This document shows, piece by piece, positions 3,081 to 20,821 of a stretch of 20,821 bases of DNA (position 1 is its first letter; each line of letters opens with the position of its first letter). The stretch is from a virus. A model generated the notes under the pieces. The model searched no databases. It was not told the origin of the DNA and was given only the letters and a program-made list of their open reading frames with translations. Location: positions 1 to 20,821 of IMG/VR virus record IMGVR_UViG_3300042402_002498; one strand, given 5' to 3'. Both the position numbers and the translations under genes were made by a program.

Positions 3081-3088
3081 TATTTATT
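3081..3088 (-). promoter_or_regulatory. late promoter overlapping a stop codon (AATAAATA)
   Basis: AATAAATA includes part of the TAA stop of the upstream gene. The expected start, about 6 bases downstream, falls inside the 5' arm of the terminator hairpin. Transcripts made here would therefore not form that terminator. Confidence 0.5.
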
Positions 3089-4217
3089 ATCTACTTTTCA
3101 ACTTTTTAATAGCACCAAACACTTTACTTGGTTCTTGCCCTGCTTTTTTTATTCCTTTATCTAGAGCATCATACTCTCTATGAGCTCCTCCAGCGCCTCT
3201 ATGTCGTTCTGGAGAAAGACCTACTAAATTTTTAGGATTATTTCCAAAGTGAACACCAACTTTTGAATGTCTTTTTCGTATTTCTTGCCGTTCTTCTGGA
3301 CTTTTATTTTTAAAAAGTTCTCTTGCTCTAGTTAAAGGAACTCTGTGGTGTGCTTCTTTACCTTTTGACGTGATTCTAGAAACTTTATCTTTATATTCGT
3401 TAGGTTTTACCTCGGGATCAGTTTGATCTTTAGTACTACCACCTCTCGTTTTTCCTTGTCCGGATATTGAAGATTTTCTTTTAGTCGTCCAATTGCCACC
3501 ACCAACATTCCTAACACGCCACTCATCAGGATTACTTTTAGCAAGTCTTTTCTTTTCAGCATCTTCCCTAGATGCTTCCAAAATAAACTCCCCAAAAGTT
3601 TTTCCATTAAAAGAATCACTTAACTTTGCCATCTGAACACCAGTCTTTGGGTTTCTTTCGCCCATACCTAGTTTGCTATAAATTCTACCTCTTTGTTCTG
3701 CACCCTCCTCACCACTTCTACTCTTTTTACCCTTAGACTTGGCAGAATCAATAGCAGTGGGGGTGTTAGTAGCAACACCTTTTTTGGATTTTACCGCATC
3801 TTTAACACCTTTAAGGGCACCAACAAATTGTCTTGCTCTTTGTCCGGGATCTTTTACTTTAGATTTTGGAGAACCAACAGTAATATCGTGAACTGGAGAA
3901 TCTTTCTTAGCACCAGTTTTACCAAACTGCTTTTTTAATTCTTTACTCTGCGGTTTATCACCCTCTCTATGCTGCTTCTTTGCAGTATGAGCAGCATAGT
4001 CGCCAGGAGACTTGTGAGTTCTTACCCAAACAGGCACATCCTTCCCACTTTTTTCTACTTTTGGATCTTGAATGGGACCTTTCTTTCTAAATCCAGCACG
4101 AGACACATCTCTTCTAGCGGCACCTTCGGAACCACGCATATCCATAGTTCCAGAAGGTCTAACCTTCTTTCCTACCATCAAAGTCCTCTCATCAAGGATT
4201 TCTTCTTGAAACTGCAT
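3087..4217 (-). CDS. basic protein with C-terminal AHH/HNH-like nuclease domain, 376 aa
   Basis: A very basic, low-complexity, Lys/Gly/Ser-rich protein. Residues about 285-350 hold an HNH-like pattern: EAHHRVPL (His290/291), then NNPKNLVGL (Asn327, Asn330), then two further His (339 and 346) in ERHRG and GAHREYD. This resembles the His-Me-finger nucleases of the AHH/HNH type used as toxin tips. Near the middle, FGEFILEAS (about 209-216) matches the EFI.EA form of the T4 capsid targeting and gp21 cleavage motif. That suggests a head protein, possibly a fusion of two shorter ones. The ATG at 4217 is preferred over a GTG at 4229, giving a leader of about 15 bases from the TATAAATA promoter. Nuclease activity and head location are inferred. 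Confidence 0.75.
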   Translation of the reverse strand: MQFQEEILDERTLMVGKKVRPSGTMDMRGSEGAARRDVSRAGFRKKGPIQDPKVEKSGKDVPVWVRTHKSPGDYAAHTAKKQHREGDKPQSKELKKQFGKTGAKKDSPVHDITVGSPKSKVKDPGQRARQFVGALKGVKDAVKSKKGVATNTPTAIDSAKSKGKKSRSGEEGAEQRGRIYSKLGMGERNPKTGVQMAKLSDSFNGKTFGEFILEASREDAEKKRLAKSNPDEWRVRNVGGGNWTTKRKSSISGQGKTRGGSTKDQTDPEVKPNEYKDKVSRITSKGKEAHHRVPLTRARELFKNKSPEERQEIRKRHSKVGVHFGNNPKNLVGLSPERHRGAGGAHREYDALDKGIKKAGQEPSKVFGAIKKLKSR

Positions 4218-4237
4218 TTCTATAAACACTTTTTAGA

Positions 4238-5273: not shown

Positions 5274-5700
5274 AATAATCTTTTCGGAAGTATCTGTTGA
5301 GGATGTTGCTATTGTAGTATCTGGGCACTCCGATGTCAAGGGATTCTGTGAGGACGTTGTGAGCAAAGAGTTGTCGCGTTTCTTCAAAGTTAGTTTTGCC
5401 CTTTGTTTTATGTAATGATAAAATAGTGCGCGTAAAATTCTCCCTACCATATTTGTCTACATCTTCTTTGAGTTCTGGGCATGATCCATAGTATTTTTTC
5501 CAATCAGACTCCGATTTAACTTTTCTAGATTTTCCCTTCGGTGTTCGGAAACTCCAGAAATATTTTCTACCAATATAGTCCCTACCAGTTGTAATGCAGT
5601 GAATATGATAAACAAAACCAAAATAATCTTGAATATCAACTGATAGAAACACCTTTCCATTATAACTCCAAGGGTTTTCATAGTCAATATCTGTACTCAT
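5257..5700 (-). CDS. GIY-YIG-like nuclease, 147 aa
   Basis: The core begins GFVYHIHCITTGRDYIGRKYF. GFVY (28-31) stands for the GIY motif and YIG (42-44) is exact, followed by Arg45/Lys46. A Glu in NFEE (106) is at the expected position for the metal-binding acid. Trp-Lys-Lys-Tyr-Tyr-Gly-Ser (67-73) and KYGRENFTR (83-91) match a family I recall from T4-like cyanophages annotated as putative endonucleases. Such enzymes make single- or double-strand cuts and may be homing or host-DNA-degrading nucleases. The start is the ATG at 5700, overlapping the 53-aa gene upstream by 17 bases. It lies downstream of nrdB and is not inside an intron. The substrate is unknown. Confidence 0.75.
   Translation of the reverse strand: MSTDIDYENPWSYNGKVFLSVDIQDYFGFVYHIHCITTGRDYIGRKYFWSFRTPKGKSRKVKSESDWKKYYGSCPELKEDVDKYGRENFTRTILSLHKTKGKTNFEETRQLFAHNVLTESLDIGVPRYYNSNILNRYFRKDYYERND
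5311..5339 (-). promoter_or_regulatory. sigma-70 promoter inside the GIY-YIG gene
   Basis: TTGACA (5339-5334), a 17-base spacer and TACAAT (5316-5311), about 38 bases upstream of the 57-aa ATG. It lies in coding sequence, so chance is possible. Confidence 0.5.
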
Positions 5701-5845
5701 CAATTATATCAAGAACTTCGTTCAGATATTTATGAGCAACCCCTTTCATATCCATTTCGGGTCTGATGTGTTCTTTATGAAGTTTATCCTTTAACTTTAA
5801 AACACGAACTTTAAGTTCTTCTTTGGTGAGTTGATTTTTGGGCAT
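5684..5845 (-). CDS. 53-aa helical protein
   Basis: A charged, Lys-rich protein starting MPKNQLTKEELKVRV and ending EVLDIIDEYRY. It is predicted to be all helical, perhaps a short coiled coil. I recall similar small proteins in T4-like cyanophages but know no function. Its stop overlaps the GIY-YIG start region (17 bases shared), indicating translational coupling. The ATG directly follows a U7 tract that ends a GGAGG/CCTCC hairpin. This leaves no free Shine-Dalgarno in the usual place, because the only GGAGG is in the hairpin arm, about 18 bases upstream. Confidence 0.75.
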   Translation of the reverse strand: MPKNQLTKEELKVRVLKLKDKLHKEHIRPEMDMKGVAHKYLNEVLDIIDEYRY

Positions 5846-7187: not shown

Positions 7188-9462
7188 ACTCCCCCTCCTC
7201 TACTGAACTTAACTCACTAATCAAATCTTGAAGATTGGGTTTCTCTTCCACTACCTCATCAGTCTTAATATCGTAAGTGTTTTGGTAATAAGAAGTTTTC
7301 CACCCGTACTTGTATGTAGTCAAAAAGTCATTTGCCATTACTGACACAGGAACTTCATTGTCTGGATAATTTTCTGGATTATAGGACCAGTTTCCAGAAA
7401 TCGCTTGATCAAAGAACTTCTGCATCACAGCAACAATATTAATATAACCGCGATTGCTAGGCATATCCCAAAGAAGCGTATACGCATTTTTAAGAGATTG
7501 ATATTGTGGAACAATCTGTTTAAGGGGACCTTTCTTTGATTTCTTAATGGACAAGTATCCGCGAGGAGGTTCAATTCCATTGGTTGCGTTTGACACAACG
7601 GAACTGCTCTCCGATGGCATCTGTGCGGACAGCGTTGAGTGCCTGAGACCGTGAGCCAGGATGGATGTTCTAAGTGCTTCCCAATCATGTTGCAATGGAA
7701 TAGAAGAAATTTCGTCTACATCTTTTTTGTAAGTATCAATTGGGAGAATGCCATCTGCATACTTAGTACGACCAAAGTATTCGCAATATCCTTTTTCTTT
7801 TGCGATTTGATTTGATGATTTCAGAAGATAATATTGAAAAGATTCAGATAGACCATGAACAGCATTCCAAGCTTCTTGCGATTCATAATTATATCCCAAT
7901 TTTGCCAAATAGTGCGCCAACCCAATAAACCCTATACCAAGCGAACGACGTGCCTTAGTGGCGATTTCCGCCGCTTCTACGGGATATTTTTGATAGTCAA
8001 TCAACTCGTCTAATCCACGAACAGAAAGATCACAAAGATCTTCGAGTTCTTCATCAGACTTAACTTTGCCAACATTAATAGCAGAGAGAATGCACAAAGC
8101 AATCTCACCTTCACCGTCAATATGCTGAATGGGATCAGTAGGTAAAGTAATTTCCTGACAAAGATTACTCATATTCACTTTGTCTTTAAATGAAGAGTGT
8201 GAGTTGCAATGGTCAATGTTCATAATGTAGACACGACCCGTTTCAGCACGTTCTTTGAGGAGACTAAGAATGAGTTCCTGTGCCTTAACAGTTTTCGACG
8301 GAATGGACGAATTGTTTTCGTATTCAACATATAAATCGTCAAACTTGTCTGTTCCGAAAGAATCATAAAGTCCAGGTACATCGTGCGGAGAGAAAAGTGT
8401 AATCTCACCGTCCTGAATAAATCTTTCATAGAACAGTTTGCTAATTTGAATTGAGTAGTCCAGTTTACGGACACGATTATCTTCCGTACCTTTATTGTTC
8501 TTAAGAACTAGAATGTCTTGGATTTCTTGGTGCCAGATTGGGAAGTGTACGGTTGCGCTCCCACCTCTGATGCCATTTTGAGTGCAGCATCGGACAGTTG
8601 CTTCAAACTTCTTGAGAAATGGAACAACGCCTGTATGCTGCACTTCTCCACCTCTAATTTTACTGTTGATACCACGGATTCGACCTGCGTTGATGCCGAT
8701 GCCCGCCCTTTGTGCAACATATCTGCCGATAGCCATATCAGAACTAAAGATGCTATCGAGGGTGTCATCAACATCAACAAGAACACAGCTAGCAAATTGT
8801 CGAAGTGGAGTTCGCACTCCTGCCATGATAGGTGTGGGAATGTTGATTTTGTGTTTTGAGATTGCGTCATAGTACCTCCTGACATATGACATTCTGGTTT
8901 CTTTAGGATACTCTGCAAAGATAGTCAGAGCAATCATCATGTACATAAACTGTGGAGTTTCATATACTCCACCACCGCTTCTATCTTGCACGAGGTACTT
9001 ATCAACGACTTGACGTAAACCCGCATAAGTGAACAGATAGTCACGGTCATGGTCAATGAAACTATCAGCTTTCTCAATTTCTTCTTTTGAATACTTGTTG
9101 AAGATGTCACTATCGTAAACTTCATGATTAACACATTGATAAATGTGTTGCTCTAGAGTGGGAAGTTCTTTCATCTTCCCATACAATTGTTTACGAACAG
9201 AGAATAGAAGTAACCTTGCGGCAACATATTGATAGTTTGGGTGGTCTAGATCAATCAAATCAGAAGCAGAACGAATTAGGATCTCTTGAATTTCTCCGGT
9301 TGTAATTCCGTCATAAAACTGAATACCAGAAGTCATCTCAACTTGACTTGCAGATACCCCAGCAAGACCACTACACGATTCTTCGACCATCAAATGCATT
9401 TTATCCAGGTCAAGAGACTCAATCCGACCATCACGCTTTTTAACTTTTGTACCGTTGCTCAT
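7168..9462 (-). CDS. nrdA: ribonucleotide reductase class Ia, alpha subunit
   Basis: This is the 764-aa catalytic subunit. An N-terminal ATP-cone-like region (VKKRDGRIESLDLDK) suggests allosteric control by ATP/dATP. Active-site residues match E. coli NrdA: the redox Cys226 (FASCVLVDVDD) and Cys457 (EIALCILSA); Asn433, Cys435 and Glu437 in SNLCQEITLPT; the radical-path Tyr pair in KTSYYQNT; and the C-terminal redox pair CESC followed by AV. The ATG at 9462, with GGAAG six bases upstream, is chosen over an in-frame TTG at 9474. It overlaps the primase stop as ATGA and the nrdB start by 20 bases. It has no intron or intein. Together with NrdB it converts the host nucleotide pool into DNA precursors. 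Confidence 0.97.
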   Translation of the reverse strand: MSNGTKVKKRDGRIESLDLDKMHLMVEESCSGLAGVSASQVEMTSGIQFYDGITTGEIQEILIRSASDLIDLDHPNYQYVAARLLLFSVRKQLYGKMKELPTLEQHIYQCVNHEVYDSDIFNKYSKEEIEKADSFIDHDRDYLFTYAGLRQVVDKYLVQDRSGGGVYETPQFMYMMIALTIFAEYPKETRMSYVRRYYDAISKHKINIPTPIMAGVRTPLRQFASCVLVDVDDTLDSIFSSDMAIGRYVAQRAGIGINAGRIRGINSKIRGGEVQHTGVVPFLKKFEATVRCCTQNGIRGGSATVHFPIWHQEIQDILVLKNNKGTEDNRVRKLDYSIQISKLFYERFIQDGEITLFSPHDVPGLYDSFGTDKFDDLYVEYENNSSIPSKTVKAQELILSLLKERAETGRVYIMNIDHCNSHSSFKDKVNMSNLCQEITLPTDPIQHIDGEGEIALCILSAINVGKVKSDEELEDLCDLSVRGLDELIDYQKYPVEAAEIATKARRSLGIGFIGLAHYLAKLGYNYESQEAWNAVHGLSESFQYYLLKSSNQIAKEKGYCEYFGRTKYADGILPIDTYKKDVDEISSIPLQHDWEALRTSILAHGLRHSTLSAQMPSESSSVVSNATNGIEPPRGYLSIKKSKKGPLKQIVPQYQSLKNAYTLLWDMPSNRGYINIVAVMQKFFDQAISGNWSYNPENYPDNEVPVSVMANDFLTTYKYGWKTSYYQNTYDIKTDEVVEEKPNLQDLISELSSVEEGECESCAV

Positions 9463-13020: not shown

Positions 13021-14604
13021 TCAAGCAGTAATAGAGGGATCAGAACCTTTTGGCGCAGATCTCAATGCTTGAAGTTTTCTTTGAAGAATTTGAACTTCTT
13101 GCTGCCTTGTTCTATCTTTTTGTTGCTGCATTTTCTTGTTCTCTTGCTCAGAACCACCAGTCTTTGAAGATTTTGGGTTAATTTCCATTGCCTGCTCAGC
13201 AATTTTCTTAGCCATCTTAGTGGCGGTTGCCATTTTGACTTCCATACCACGACCAGGATATCTTCTTTCAAAATCAGATAAGTTCATAGACTGTGCAATT
13301 TCTTCTCTTTTTTTCTTCTCAGCAGCAGTTAAAGTCTTTTCATCAATTCGAACTTGCTCGCTTCTTACACTTGCAAGGAGATCATCCAATTTTGACTTTC
13401 TTTTTTTCTTTGTTGCTGTTGCAGCAGGTGCTTTTGCTTTTGCTTTTGGCGCAGCTGCTTTTTTAGTTGTTGCTTTTGCTTTTGGTTTTGCTGGAGTTGT
13501 TGCACTACCTTCCCAAGGATCAGAAGGTTTTTCTGGTTTTGCTTTTGGTTTTGGTTTTTGAGGAACTGTAGAACTTCCCTTCCAAGGATCAGCAGGTTTT
13601 TCTGCTTTCTTTTTGGCAGGTGGAGTATAAGAACCACTGCTTACTCTTTCTTTTTGACCAACACCAGCACCACGATATGTTGATGGCTTTCTTTCTGTAG
13701 TGCTTGTTTTTTTATCACCACCTTCCATTTTGCGTGCAACACCTAATGCACCTTTAGCAACTTTTCTTGCTCCTCTTGCAACTGCCCCAGCAGCTGCTTT
13801 TTTAGCGCCACGAACTTTACTTGTAAGTTTTTGCCTAGCAAGTCTTCCAACTGCTGCAACTAAATTACCCCTTTTCTTTTTAGGAGTAGCAGTATCATGA
13901 CCAAAAGTTACTTTTGCTTCAGTGAGTGCAAACTCAAGTGCTTCCTCAATATCATCTTCTCCATATCCCTCTTCTAGGAGTTCATCATAAACACTTTCTA
14001 CAATATAATCAACTTCATCGATCTCAACCATCTCAATAAGAGTTCCACCAAGATTCTCTACTGCTTCACCAAGATCAAGTTTTGGATTGATATCAATTTT
14101 ATTATCAACTTGCTTTTCTACTATTTTTTGGTCATGATCTTTTTTTGGTTGTATTTTATCGACAACCTCAATTAAGTCCTCTCTCCAATTAGAATATCCT
14201 TCTTTTGCAATTACTTTTGAGCGAACTTTTCTACGATTCTTCAAATATGCATCAGACTTATCCGAATCACCATCATTATCAATATCATCATCTTCCTTAC
14301 CAACTGGATCCAGTGCTTCTTTTACTTTCTTTTTCTTGAACTTACCAGAAACTTCTCCCTCTTCCCAACCTTTTCCGTCACCATCATTGTCCCACCAACG
14401 CTTCGCTTTCTTTTCTTCTTTAATACCTTTCTTTGCTCTCATTGCTTTTGCTTTTGCAAGTGCTCTTTCTCTAGCAGCATCTCTTTCCGATTTTGGAATA
14501 GCAGTTACGGCACCAAGTTTTTCTGCTGGTTTTCCAGGAACTGCTGACTCAGCAACCTGTTCCAAATAAACTTTGGAAATTTCATTCAGAGGATTAATTG
14601 ACAT
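13021..14604 (-). CDS. histone-H1-like, Lys/Ala-rich head-associated protein, 527 aa
   Basis: The N-terminus MSINPLNEISKVYLEQVAES is a signature I recall from cyanophage structural proteins, with possible gp21-type cleavage after VAE. Two acidic Ca-loop-like stretches follow: WWDNDGDGKGWEEGE (about 69-83) and DDDIDNDGDSDKSD (about 104-117). A middle acidic helix pair (YDELLEEGYGEDDIEEAL) comes next. A long Lys/Ala/Pro-rich region (about 330-410, for example AAAPKAKAKAPAATATKKK) resembles the tail of linker histones, and a coiled, basic C-terminus ends the protein. This composition suggests DNA binding inside the head, like the T4 internal proteins. The start has a CATAAATA late promoter 35 bases upstream, inside the previous gene. 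DNA condensation is inferred; a scaffold role is an alternative. Confidence 0.8.
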   Translation of the reverse strand: MSINPLNEISKVYLEQVAESAVPGKPAEKLGAVTAIPKSERDAARERALAKAKAMRAKKGIKEEKKAKRWWDNDGDGKGWEEGEVSGKFKKKKVKEALDPVGKEDDDIDNDGDSDKSDAYLKNRRKVRSKVIAKEGYSNWREDLIEVVDKIQPKKDHDQKIVEKQVDNKIDINPKLDLGEAVENLGGTLIEMVEIDEVDYIVESVYDELLEEGYGEDDIEEALEFALTEAKVTFGHDTATPKKKRGNLVAAVGRLARQKLTSKVRGAKKAAAGAVARGARKVAKGALGVARKMEGGDKKTSTTERKPSTYRGAGVGQKERVSSGSYTPPAKKKAEKPADPWKGSSTVPQKPKPKAKPEKPSDPWEGSATTPAKPKAKATTKKAAAPKAKAKAPAATATKKKRKSKLDDLLASVRSEQVRIDEKTLTAAEKKKREEIAQSMNLSDFERRYPGRGMEVKMATATKMAKKIAEQAMEINPKSSKTGGSEQENKKMQQQKDRTRQQEVQILQRKLQALRSAPKGSDPSITA

Positions 14605-14609
14605 TTTGA

Positions 14610-15899
14610 TTAGGCACTTACTTTACTTTTTCTATACTTATTTATGAAATTCAAGAATGCCTTACCTCCTGCCTGAAGATTCTCCTTTCCCAAAGTTGAA
14701 CCAGGTGTCTGTTTAACCGCATACTTTAAATATCCCGTTGTTCCTGCAAGTGTATTTGGTTTTCCTGGTTCTCTATACATACTATCCATCTTAACTTCAG
14801 TATACTCCATCACATCTTTAATCCAAGACTTGAACATATAACCTTCTTCAGTTACGCAAATTAAATGATTAGTTCCTCTACGCATTACCTCACCAATCAA
14901 TCCAGTGTTTAGGTTTTGGACTTTATCTCCGATTCTAAAAATTTTTCCTCTTACATAATTCTCACGAAGATTTTTCATATCATACTTTGGAGCAATCTCC
15001 CATAATGCATAACTTTCCGTTTTAACCTTTACCTTCTTAACACCCATTCCCTGGCGAACTGCAGTGAAAAGTGCTTGAGCTTCTCCATCATCAAGAGTCT
15101 TTGGAGTTCCTCTACGGAATGATTTAAAATCATCATCCATCACTGCCTTTCTCATTTTAGATGCAGACATTCCCTCAACACCTTCAGCATCTGCATCTCT
15201 TACACCAGCAGAAATTACACGAATCTGTTCAAAATCATAAAGATTTCCATTATATTTCTGTGCTAGATTTTCAAATTCTGCTTGACGATCAGATCCAACA
15301 ACAATATTTACATTAGTATACCCATCCTCATTTGCATTAATCAATACATCAAAAATAGTTTTCATGTCCCTATCATTAATAATGTTCTCCTCAAAATCAG
15401 GGAACATTTTTTTCATAAAGGAAACTTTATTATCAGGGTCTAAAGGATTCTTCTTTGGATCTTGAGATCTTGAGGGATAGATTTTAATATCTCCGCCAGC
15501 AGATATTCTCTTTGCCGACTTAAGAAGTTTATCATGCCCTACTGTTGGTGGATTAAAGCGACCAAACACAATGGTAAGTGGTGGCAGTTCCTCCGCAGGT
15601 TGCTCTTCTGGTGCTTGTCCTGGCGCTGCTTGAGGTTGTGGTGCAGGTACTTGTGCTGCTTGAGGTTGTTGTGTAGTTGGTGCAGCACCAGCGGGTTGTC
15701 TTCCTGCTGCTGGTTCTTCTGCACCTTTCGGTTGGCGACCATCAATATACTTAAGTTTTCCTTTATCAGTTCTCGCAACAAGTTTACCAGAACGATCTAA
15801 CCATCCACCATGACCGTCTCCAGTATATCCAAGTTTTTTCGCCTGCATTGCTGCTTGCGACTCTTTTGCTTCGGATAGAAAATTGAAAAAACTCTTCAT
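14610..15899 (-). CDS. nucleotidyltransferase with capsid-targeting-like N-terminus, 429 aa
   Basis: Three parts are visible. Residues 1-15 (MKSFFNFLSEAKESQ) closely resemble the T4 internal-protein targeting sequence MKTYQEFIAEA, cut by the gp21 protease after the Glu. A Gln/Pro/Ala-rich linker (about 60-105) follows. Residues about 107-270 are a cytidylyltransferase-like fold. The nucleotide-binding motif LTIVFGRFNPPTVGH contains the (H/T)xGH box, and GMSASKMRKAV stands in for the ISSTxxR box. Residues about 310-370 (RIGDKVQNLNTGLIGEV and CVTEEGYMFKSWIKDV) form a small beta domain like an SH3/KOW fold. Such enzymes transfer a nucleotide from CTP or ATP; the acceptor here is unknown. Packaging in the head is inferred from the N-terminus. 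A late promoter precedes it. Confidence 0.85.
   Translation of the reverse strand: MKSFFNFLSEAKESQAAMQAKKLGYTGDGHGGWLDRSGKLVARTDKGKLKYIDGRQPKGAEEPAAGRQPAGAAPTTQQPQAAQVPAPQPQAAPGQAPEEQPAEELPPLTIVFGRFNPPTVGHDKLLKSAKRISAGGDIKIYPSRSQDPKKNPLDPDNKVSFMKKMFPDFEENIINDRDMKTIFDVLINANEDGYTNVNIVVGSDRQAEFENLAQKYNGNLYDFEQIRVISAGVRDADAEGVEGMSASKMRKAVMDDDFKSFRRGTPKTLDDGEAQALFTAVRQGMGVKKVKVKTESYALWEIAPKYDMKNLRENYVRGKIFRIGDKVQNLNTGLIGEVMRRGTNHLICVTEEGYMFKSWIKDVMEYTEVKMDSMYREPGKPNTLAGTTGYLKYAVKQTPGSTLGKENLQAGGKAFLNFINKYRKSKVSA
14639..14646 (-). promoter_or_regulatory. late promoter CATAAATA for the histone-like gene
   Basis: CATAAATA lies inside the last codons of the nucleotidyltransferase gene, 35 bases before the ATG at 14604. 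Confidence 0.5.
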
Positions 15900-15919: not shown

Positions 15920-15927
15920 TATTTATT
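15920..15927 (-). promoter_or_regulatory. late promoter AATAAATA for the nucleotidyltransferase gene
   Basis: AATAAATA is 21 bases upstream of the ATG at 15899. Confidence 0.5.
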
Positions 15928-15930
15928 TGT

Positions 15931-17106
15931 TTAGTAAATCTTTAAAAATGGACCATTTGCAGATCCAAACTCCTTTTTCGCCCCATAGTATAAAACTCTA
16001 CACCATTCTTTCATTTTCTTTTTCTTTCCAATCTCAACCCAAGTATTTGCCCATTCCATTGCTATAAGTTTTGAAGAAAATCTTCCAGCCGAACTTCTAT
16101 CACTGGTATTTGATTCATATATAATTGCATTTTCCAAAATATCTTCAAAAGTATCTCCAATTTTTTTGCCATTTTGATATACGGCAACTTCGCCAAAATC
16201 AATCATAGAATTACTTTTTAATTTATTATACAAATCTATCCAGTATTTTTTATCAATGTCTTTCCAATTTCCTACGGGGGGGATATGAGGATGTTTACTT
16301 GCAGATGATGGTCTTGTCATTCCAAGATCTGAAAAAAACTTATCCATAGCAACACTAGAAACTTTTCCAAGTTTTGCTCCAGCATCTTTTCCCTTTGGAG
16401 TTAAGTCAGTTTGAACTACATTTCTTGCTTGAGAATATTGAAAATTTCTAGATTGTCCATGTATTTGTCCCCCAGATTCTGTTTTTAAATCAAATCCAAG
16501 TTCTCCAGTATCAAATAAAAAGTTTGCCTTTTTGCCCAAAGTGAGAGTACATTTTAAAGAACCAGGAATGAGATCGATATCAACTCTTGATGTTTTATCT
16601 CCCCCCATATTTGCCAATTCCACACTGGCAGTTTTTTTGTTTTTTGAGATCGCCTTCAAAGAAACTCCAATTAATATTTTATCCTCTAGTGCCTCTTTCA
16701 TATAAGTATTCAAAAGAGAAAGATTTGCCTGCTGACTGATCCCATCAATATTAGTAAGTTCTCTTATTGTCCCCTCAACAGTTTTTTTCATATTTTTTTT
16801 AACCATAACAATATCCATGGGATTCCATCTATCTTTGACAGAAACTCCACAATCTTTTTTGGCAATACCTTCAATATATGGCATTATCCCAGAATCTCTA
16901 GAATACTCATATCCTTTATTTGAACCAAGAAATTTCTTTAGTGCTTCTACTTGTTTTCTATATGTCTCTTTCCATTCTGCATTATATCCATCATAAACTT
17001 TCAACATAACTGCATCCGATGGTTCTTTTCCAGTTTCAATTACAGATTCAAAAAAAACTCTTGAACCATTTTCCTGTTTAGCAGTTTCTGTAGCACTGGT
17101 GGCCAT
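15931..17106 (-). CDS. possible PD-(D/E)XK-type nuclease, 391 aa
   Basis: The protein has one striking motif, CGVSVKDRWNPMDIVMVKK (about 86-104), followed about 45 residues later by ILIGVSLKAISKNKK (about 144-158). An NP-x-D-I acid and a later hydrophobic beta strand ending S-L-K are the spacing seen in restriction-endonuclease-like folds (PD-(D/E)XK), with Asp98 and Lys151 as candidate catalytic residues. The rest is Lys-rich with several Gly-rich turns (ELANMGGDK, TESGGQIHGQSRN). There is no transmembrane segment. A TCTAAATA late promoter lies between tRNA-Ala and the start. It sits between two likely head-packaged proteins, so packaging is possible, although no clear targeting motif is seen. 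The fold is a guess from motif pattern only. Confidence 0.72.
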   Translation of the reverse strand: MATSATETAKQENGSRVFFESVIETGKEPSDAVMLKVYDGYNAEWKETYRKQVEALKKFLGSNKGYEYSRDSGIMPYIEGIAKKDCGVSVKDRWNPMDIVMVKKNMKKTVEGTIRELTNIDGISQQANLSLLNTYMKEALEDKILIGVSLKAISKNKKTASVELANMGGDKTSRVDIDLIPGSLKCTLTLGKKANFLFDTGELGFDLKTESGGQIHGQSRNFQYSQARNVVQTDLTPKGKDAGAKLGKVSSVAMDKFFSDLGMTRPSSASKHPHIPPVGNWKDIDKKYWIDLYNKLKSNSMIDFGEVAVYQNGKKIGDTFEDILENAIIYESNTSDRSSAGRFSSKLIAMEWANTWVEIGKKKKMKEWCRVLYYGAKKEFGSANGPFLKIY

Positions 17107-17135: not shown

Positions 17136-17136
17136 A

Positions 17137-17209
17137 TGGAGAATAGGAGACTCGAACTCCTGACTTCCTGCTTGCAAAGCAGACGCACTACCAACTGTGC
17201 TAATTCCCC
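17137..17209 (-). tRNA. tRNA-Ala(TGC), isolated from the array
   Basis: A 73-nt cloverleaf with acceptor GGGGAAT/ATTCTCC that includes the G3-U70 pair identifying Ala. Loop TTTGCAA reads TGC and the T-loop is AGTTCGAGTCT. The discriminator is A. It stands alone among late genes, about 15 kb from the array, with its own promoter. Confidence 0.95.
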
Positions 17210-17218
17210 AATACAAAC

Positions 17219-18668: not shown

Positions 18669-18669
<1 letters not shown>
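18196..18669 (-). CDS. mazG: MazG nucleotide pyrophosphohydrolase, 157 aa
   Basis: The core (residues about 67-140) has the MazG metal-binding pattern: AEAGEFTEVVKKI (acids at the ExxE positions), then MKRELGDICWYL (ELGD), with a final YPEGAFDVYRSENR tail. The MSENKVIDTNKYIEFV section is the start I recall from cyanophage MazG proteins. The enzyme cleaves nucleoside triphosphates to monophosphate and pyrophosphate. In cyanophage S-PM2, MazG was shown to act on dGTP and dCTP and not on ppGpp, which favours nucleotide recycling from host DNA. The ATG at 18669 overlaps the ahcY stop as TGATG and has GAGGG 8 bases upstream. It adds about 18 residues before the usual MSENK start. Confidence 0.92.

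Positions 18670-20821
<2,152 letters not shown>

Follow-up and report, generated by a model that had tools for sequence, protein, structure and literature searches.

We propose that a fragment of a cyanobacterial virus with T4-like genes encodes a late adenylyltransferase that is loaded into the phage head by an N-terminal tag, injected together with the DNA and, as an NMNAT-like enzyme, works with a DUF6267 protein; we put the probability of this whole explanation at roughly 0.58. The gene lies in the window, i.e., the whole stretch of DNA analysed (20,821 nucleotides, positions 1 to 20,821 of IMG/VR record IMGVR_UViG_3300042402_002498), a 20.8-kb fragment that also has primase-like, NrdA, NrdB and MazG ORFs. 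Earlier publications already cover the enzyme family, its name and its occurrence in virions. Three points appear to be new, namely the agreement with the T4 capsid-targeting sequence, a module common to different packaged enzymes and the link to a ligase-like DUF6267 protein, none of which features in the published work on S-SCSM1 ORF91 and T4-GC190. In addition, a full-text search outside subscription papers found no earlier report of such a tag in cyanophages.

Results

The gene and its family

The ORF at 14610..15899 (minus strand; 429 aa, ATG start), which a sequence-only reading had picked out, is confirmed as a real gene of a large, already annotated family of T4-like cyanophages, named "cytitidyltransferase" (T4-GC190/phrog_395). 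Its product matches phrog_395 at 5e-104 and is not an orphan, with relatives in 533 phage records; the nearest named ones are in S-SM2, Bellamy and S-SCSM1 (Kyanoviridae). The S-SCSM1 ORF91 "NMNAT" (QFG06348.1) and the S-SM2 and Bellamy proteins are full-length homologues, 60-63% identical, and the T4-GC190 proteins of S-SM1, S-SM2 and Bellamy are likewise full-length homologues that show no difference in kind. All have the tag, the adenylyltransferase and an SH3-like domain in the same order, and the S-SCSM1 and S-SM1 forms are found in virions. An AlphaFold2 (AF2) model built with 74 sequences has confident domains at residues 13-52, 105-290 and 326-365, together with a disordered linker.

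Catalytic domain and likely reaction

The HxGH-type adenylyltransferase domain (residues 105-290; 15030..15587, minus strand) is modelled with pLDDT mostly >90. Its catalytic box FGRFNPPTVGH (residues 112-122; 15534..15566, minus strand) is invariant in the family except for N116 (N/Q) and the residue preceding G121. The KNPL box (residues 150-153; 15441..15452, minus strand), with N151 and P152 invariant, aligns with ENPF in archaeal NMNAT, while the distal SASKMR box (residues 245-250; 15150..15167, minus strand) has the consensus S(A/G)(S/T)(K/R).R in 74 diverse relatives. These 74 aligned sequences do not vary at G113, R114, P117, T119, G121, H122, S143, N151, K158, R205, S245 and R250; the boxes are therefore no chance resemblance. 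The sequence-only reading, which had called both boxes intact, is thus borne out on the two points that could have overturned it: the catalytic His and the Ser/Arg box are conserved in homologues, and structure prediction followed by structural search returned a nucleotidyltransferase fold. The protein has the features of the HxGH nucleotidyltransferase superfamily, namely an H/T-x-G-H box, a distal S-x-S/T-x-x-R box and a Rossmann-like fold in the AF2 model.

Structural alignment of residues 105-290 placed CoaD on top (Z 14.4, 2.8 Å over 150 residues), followed by NadD (13.5) and archaeal NMNAT/NadM (13.4); since rows less than 1 apart in Z were counted as tied, this result singles out no acceptor. 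When a profile built from 12 diverse members of the family was run against all PDB sequences, NadD and NadM led, and R114 and H122 aligned with two residues that have been probed by mutagenesis in the M. thermautotrophicum NMNAT, R11 and H19; phmmer with the single sequence gave no informative match in the PDB. The likeness to NadM and NadD extends to the fold, the GRF.P...GH box and the S...R box, whereas identity is only about 13-15% (12-13% for CoaD) and scores lie below all curated cut-offs. NCBIfam matches were mostly to NMNAT models, with NMNAT leading, but the best NMNAT scores were far below the curated cut-off, which was reached by no NCBIfam model. This counts against NMNAT, and we therefore call the enzyme NMNAT-like rather than NMNAT. 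Against PF01467 the 429-aa protein scores 16.9 bits, below the gathering cut-off of 21 that its close family members S-SZBM1_140 (35.6 bits) and S-PM2 (30.3 bits) pass.

Taken together, predicted fold, profiles and conservation make an ATP-type adenylyltransferase well supported, with NMN adenylylation as our best guess for the reaction. The "cytidyl" in the family name is probably a misnomer, because the predicted fold is that of the ATP-type enzymes CoaD, NadD and NadM. The earlier proposal, which placed the enzyme in a family making NAD, CDP-alcohols or activated sugars, is partly supported: the nucleotidyltransferase fold stands, and the nearest folds and profiles are those of the ATP-dependent NadM, NadD and CoaD and not of CTP enzymes.

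The N-terminus resembles a capsid-targeting sequence

The first 11 residues, MKSFFNFLSEA, resemble the start shared by T4 ipII and ipIII, MKTYQEFIAEA. According to mutational work on the T4 IPIII targeting sequence (PMC9026906), head targeting depends on positions 4 and 7 and processing on positions 8 and 10, and gp21 cleaves behind L/I-x-E. The cyanophage sequence fits at all four mapped positions, with an aromatic residue at 4, F at 7, I/L at 8 and E at 10, followed by A, and has the cleavage motif as L8-S9-E10. We therefore mark MKSFFNFLSE (residues 1-10; 15870..15899, minus strand) as capsid-targeting-like, with a predicted gp21-type cleavage site after E10. The tag is kept in 67 of 68 non-redundant full-length relatives (F7 in 68/68, E10 in 67/68 and F4 in 66/68), while residues 5, 6 and 9 vary. 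The targeting peptide proposed earlier is therefore real, but judging by its sequence it resembles a phage-head targeting sequence and not a membrane or organelle signal. IPII and IPIII are, like the proposed cargo, late and head-internal; the mature T4 proteins, however, are small, basic and unrelated, whereas the cargo here is an enzyme and its cleavage is predicted.

Tagged proteins in virions

Tagged homologues have been detected by published mass spectrometry in virions of S-SM1, S-SCSM1, S-SZBM1 and S-CREM2, which supports the earlier idea of a packaged enzyme. All four detected homologues bear the tag, whereas the S-PM2 form, which is fused behind DUF6267 and has no tag, was reported as not detected. 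A T4-type tag would therefore explain why relatives of the enzyme occur in purified virus particles.

Across the S-CREM2 genome as a whole, 4 ORFs show the tag pattern at the N-terminus, i.e., gp6 (SAM hydrolase), gp13, gp14 (kinase) and gp154 (the enzyme homologue); gp12 (HNH, annotated Cas9) and gp136 have the tag slightly further in or as a variant. All six are detected virion proteins. For the four N-terminal matches, set against 52 virion-detected proteins among 221 CDS, Fisher's test gives p = 0.003, which is suggestive and not blind, because the pattern was chosen after seeing the enzyme family. A looser pattern over all possible start codons gave spurious matches near the shuffled rate, and the N-terminal form was therefore used for tag statistics. 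S-SCSM1 has two matches, one the virion-detected enzyme homologue and the other SSCSM1_30, which is not marked as a virion protein; the tag rule is therefore good, not proven.

The S-CREM2 (OR473000) virion protein gp12 (positions 1-2314 of locus L304) is annotated "CRISPR Cas9 nuclease", a doubtful name. It is of the phrog_3561 type, carries the cargo module described below and has an HNH-like region near its C-terminal part. A further ORF of the window, at 3087-4229 (minus strand), contains near 3596 a stretch that looks like the tag but lies inside the ORF (MAKLSDSFNGKTFGEFILEAS); it is followed by an HNH-like region (EAHHRVPL ... NLVGLSPERH). If translation begins at the internal Met, the product could be one more packaged nuclease; the ORF matches a single named phage record, and this covers only its first half.

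Accessory module, linker and C-terminal domain

After the tag comes a folded module of about 40 residues (13-52) that the sequence-only reading did not have. This DGHGGW module (residues 13-54; 15738..15863, minus strand; pLDDT about 92) is common to packaged kinases and HNH-like proteins. Profile matches place it in virion kinases and their relatives in S-CREM2 and S-N03 (two copies) and S-CRM01, in the HNH-like proteins of S-CREM2, S-N03 and ACG-2014f, and in a protein of Xanthomonas phage X1. Of the virion kinases (S-CREM2, S-N03 and S-CRM01) and the S-CREM2 HNH protein, most also have a tag-like start, although their catalytic domains are unrelated to the adenylyltransferase. The module is dispensable for packaging, because the S-CREM2 and S-SZBM1 enzymes do not have it and yet occur in virions.

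A low-complexity disordered linker (residues 55-104; 15588..15737, minus strand; pLDDT mostly <50) leads to the catalytic domain, and the protein ends with an SH3-like beta domain (residues 320-368; 14796..14942, minus strand) that matches phrog_4808. A separate beta domain had been predicted near residues 310-370, and the AF2 strands at 326-365 (pLDDT about 90) agree well with this. The all-beta shape also fits the SH3/KOW label, which rests on shape and not on a fold match: the fold-search matches are filled by the nucleotidyltransferase domain and cover residues 105-290, not the module or the SH3-like domain. In S-PM2 and S-CAM1 the SH3-like domain is a separate small gene (phrog_4808), encoding S-PM2p141 (8297-8572 of locus L087), annotated as a ribonucleotide reductase subunit, and S-CAM1_185 (5534-5809 of locus L086), annotated as hypothetical. 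The reductase name appears to be a propagated misannotation, because the match of the 91-aa S-PM2p141 falls in the section of the family profile that contains the enzyme's C-terminal domain and because true NrdA and NrdB are annotated elsewhere in these genomes.

Gene neighbourhood and late promoter

The T4-type late-promoter-like box ATAAATA lies at 15920..15926 (minus strand), 27 nt upstream of the ATG, and supports the late expression suggested earlier. Of 51 relatives, 29 have the same box no more than 60 nt upstream, as against 2.7% of background windows. The gene lies between a phrog_1462-family gene upstream (15931..17106, minus strand) and a gene for a Lys/Ala-rich protein downstream (13021..14604, minus strand), in a stretch that corresponds to the mazG-gp61 interval of relatives. 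The equivalent stretch of S-SCSM1 holds a run of 5 consecutive CDS, SSCSM1_89 to 93, that are all marked as virion proteins, a tRNA separating the first from the second; SSCSM1_90 and SSCSM1_92 are the positional counterparts of the upstream and downstream neighbours, respectively. SSCSM1_90 has no tag, and the phrog_1462-family protein has a W-x-P-x-D-I ... G-V-S-L-K pattern that is, by eye, reminiscent of PD-(D/E)xK nucleases.

Elsewhere in the window, 16 of 17 tRNA genes are clustered at the left end (406-2548), and the remaining one, a tRNA-Ala (17136-17210), is just upstream of the cargo genes, a position that a tRNA-Ala also takes in S-SM2 and S-SCSM1. The 17 include two tRNA-His genes (anticodons atg and gtg). 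An S-adenosylhomocysteine hydrolase-like gene (18669-19925, minus strand; PF05221 6.6e-66, PF00670 3e-56) is unusual in phages, given that there is hardly any PHROG match.

DUF6267, a candidate partner

Of the genomes checked, all 13 that have the enzyme gene or are members of the same group encode DUF6267 (PF19782), as against none of 14 control genomes. Its gene is directly upstream of the enzyme in syn9, S-CAM1, S-SM1 and S-SZBM1; 20 of 70 environmental loci have the two side by side, and in S-PM2 they are fused. Two observations count against a partnership: in the nearest relatives of the source phage DUF6267 is elsewhere in the genome, and the virion proteins reported for S-SCSM1 and S-SZBM1 do not include it. 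For the latter reason, we rejected DUF6267 as a co-packaged protein.

DUF6267 is predicted to be a covalent RNA/DNA-ligase-like nucleotidyltransferase. Of the ligase motifs, I (KxDG), IV (EGxV) and V (K) are represented by residues that are invariant in 27 sequences (K48, D50, G51, E364, G365, V367 and K376), and the invariant motifs read K-x-D-G, E-G-x-V and K-x-x-x-R. The structural model (mean pLDDT 84) matches Naegleria RNA ligase (Z 8.2), a tRNA ligase (7.2), T4 Rnl2 (7.1) and T4 Rnl1 (6.8), and almost every top VIA row is an RNA or DNA ligase. The Foldseek result by itself is weak (a DNA ligase, at E 0.2, is the best match), which is why the ligase identity stays a prediction. The earlier view that no partner pathway is visible is weakened by the co-encoded DUF6267.

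Only the S-PM2 fusion was accepted as real. A 728-aa fusion in metaG-MbCM1 is probably a frameshift or assembly artefact, because the ORF also runs into the next gene. In S-PM2 (AJ630128; 4764-6543 of locus L087) a frame change splits DUF6267 into two ORFs, the second of which is fused to the adenylyltransferase; this frame change may be a sequencing error, because BFVD holds a 591-aa S-PM2 protein (A0A0M6VVW4).

Discussion

We envisage that the enzyme would be synthesised late, that its tag, seen in the sequence, would dock it on the prohead core, and that the gp21-type protease of the phage would then cut after E10. The protein would be packaged, as its relatives are, and ejected into the cell with the DNA. 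Early in infection its adenylyltransferase domain, intact by conservation and predicted fold, would use ATP, most likely to convert NMN to NAD+, and the enzyme would act in one pathway with the DUF6267 protein. A cycle is conceivable in which an NAD+-using ligase releases NMN and the enzyme converts it back to NAD+; the NAD+ supply could support NAD+-using reactions or offset NAD-depleting defences. The C-terminal beta domain may bind nucleic acid or a partner.

The main rival of the NMN/NAD+ reading is an RNA-directed adenylyltransferase that modifies an RNA end or tRNA and, together with DUF6267 and the SH3-like domain, repairs RNA against host cleavage, with NAD uninvolved. We consider this rather unlikely, albeit worth keeping in mind. 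The RNA-ligase-like prediction for DUF6267, its co-occurrence with the enzyme, often side by side and once fused, and the attached SH3-like domain would all suit such a role, and the profile also matches MJ0951, a HIGH_NTase1-type protein, at E 0.01. Nevertheless, the best whole-domain matches (NadD, NadM and CoaD) act on small molecules. Among small-molecule enzymes, we regard two other kinds as improbable, namely a genuine cytidylyltransferase, as the annotation has it, and an adenylyltransferase of the pantetheine or FMN type. The database name and the place of CoaD among the top structural matches speak for such an enzyme, and CoaD, too, has the box in its T-x-G-H form. By contrast, the GRFNP form with R114 matches NadM-type NMNAT, and CTP enzymes are missing from the best structural and profile rows, which makes cytidylyltransferase function unlikely but by itself does not exclude it.

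It is also quite improbable, in our view, that the protein is no cargo at all but an abundant late contaminant of CsCl-purified virions, with an unrelated amphipathic helix at its N-terminus. The proteome authors themselves caution that CsCl preparations can carry over abundant proteins and that such proteins might be carry-over, and the tag-like start of SSCSM1_30 fits this explanation. However, the protein is found in four different phages, its conservation pattern obeys the T4 mutational rules, the N-terminal tag in S-CREM2 is confined to detected proteins, and the untagged S-PM2 form went undetected.

Beyond this one enzyme, we tentatively suggest, as a possibility, that T4-like cyanophages have a modular set of injected enzymes, combining the tag and often the module with unrelated enzymes (adenylyltransferase, kinase, HNH protein and SAM hydrolase), and that the adenylyltransferase works with DUF6267, a hitherto overlooked RNA-ligase-like protein, in the metabolism of NAD or of RNA ends as infection begins. 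The packaging of cyanophage virion enzymes has hitherto been unexplained and was sometimes ascribed to contamination; a ten-residue T4-type tag offers a testable reason. The tag may also serve as a simple sequence predictor of the proteins that these abundant aquatic viruses inject into cyanobacteria, and DUF6267 as a partner would narrow the search for the substrate of the adenylyltransferase.
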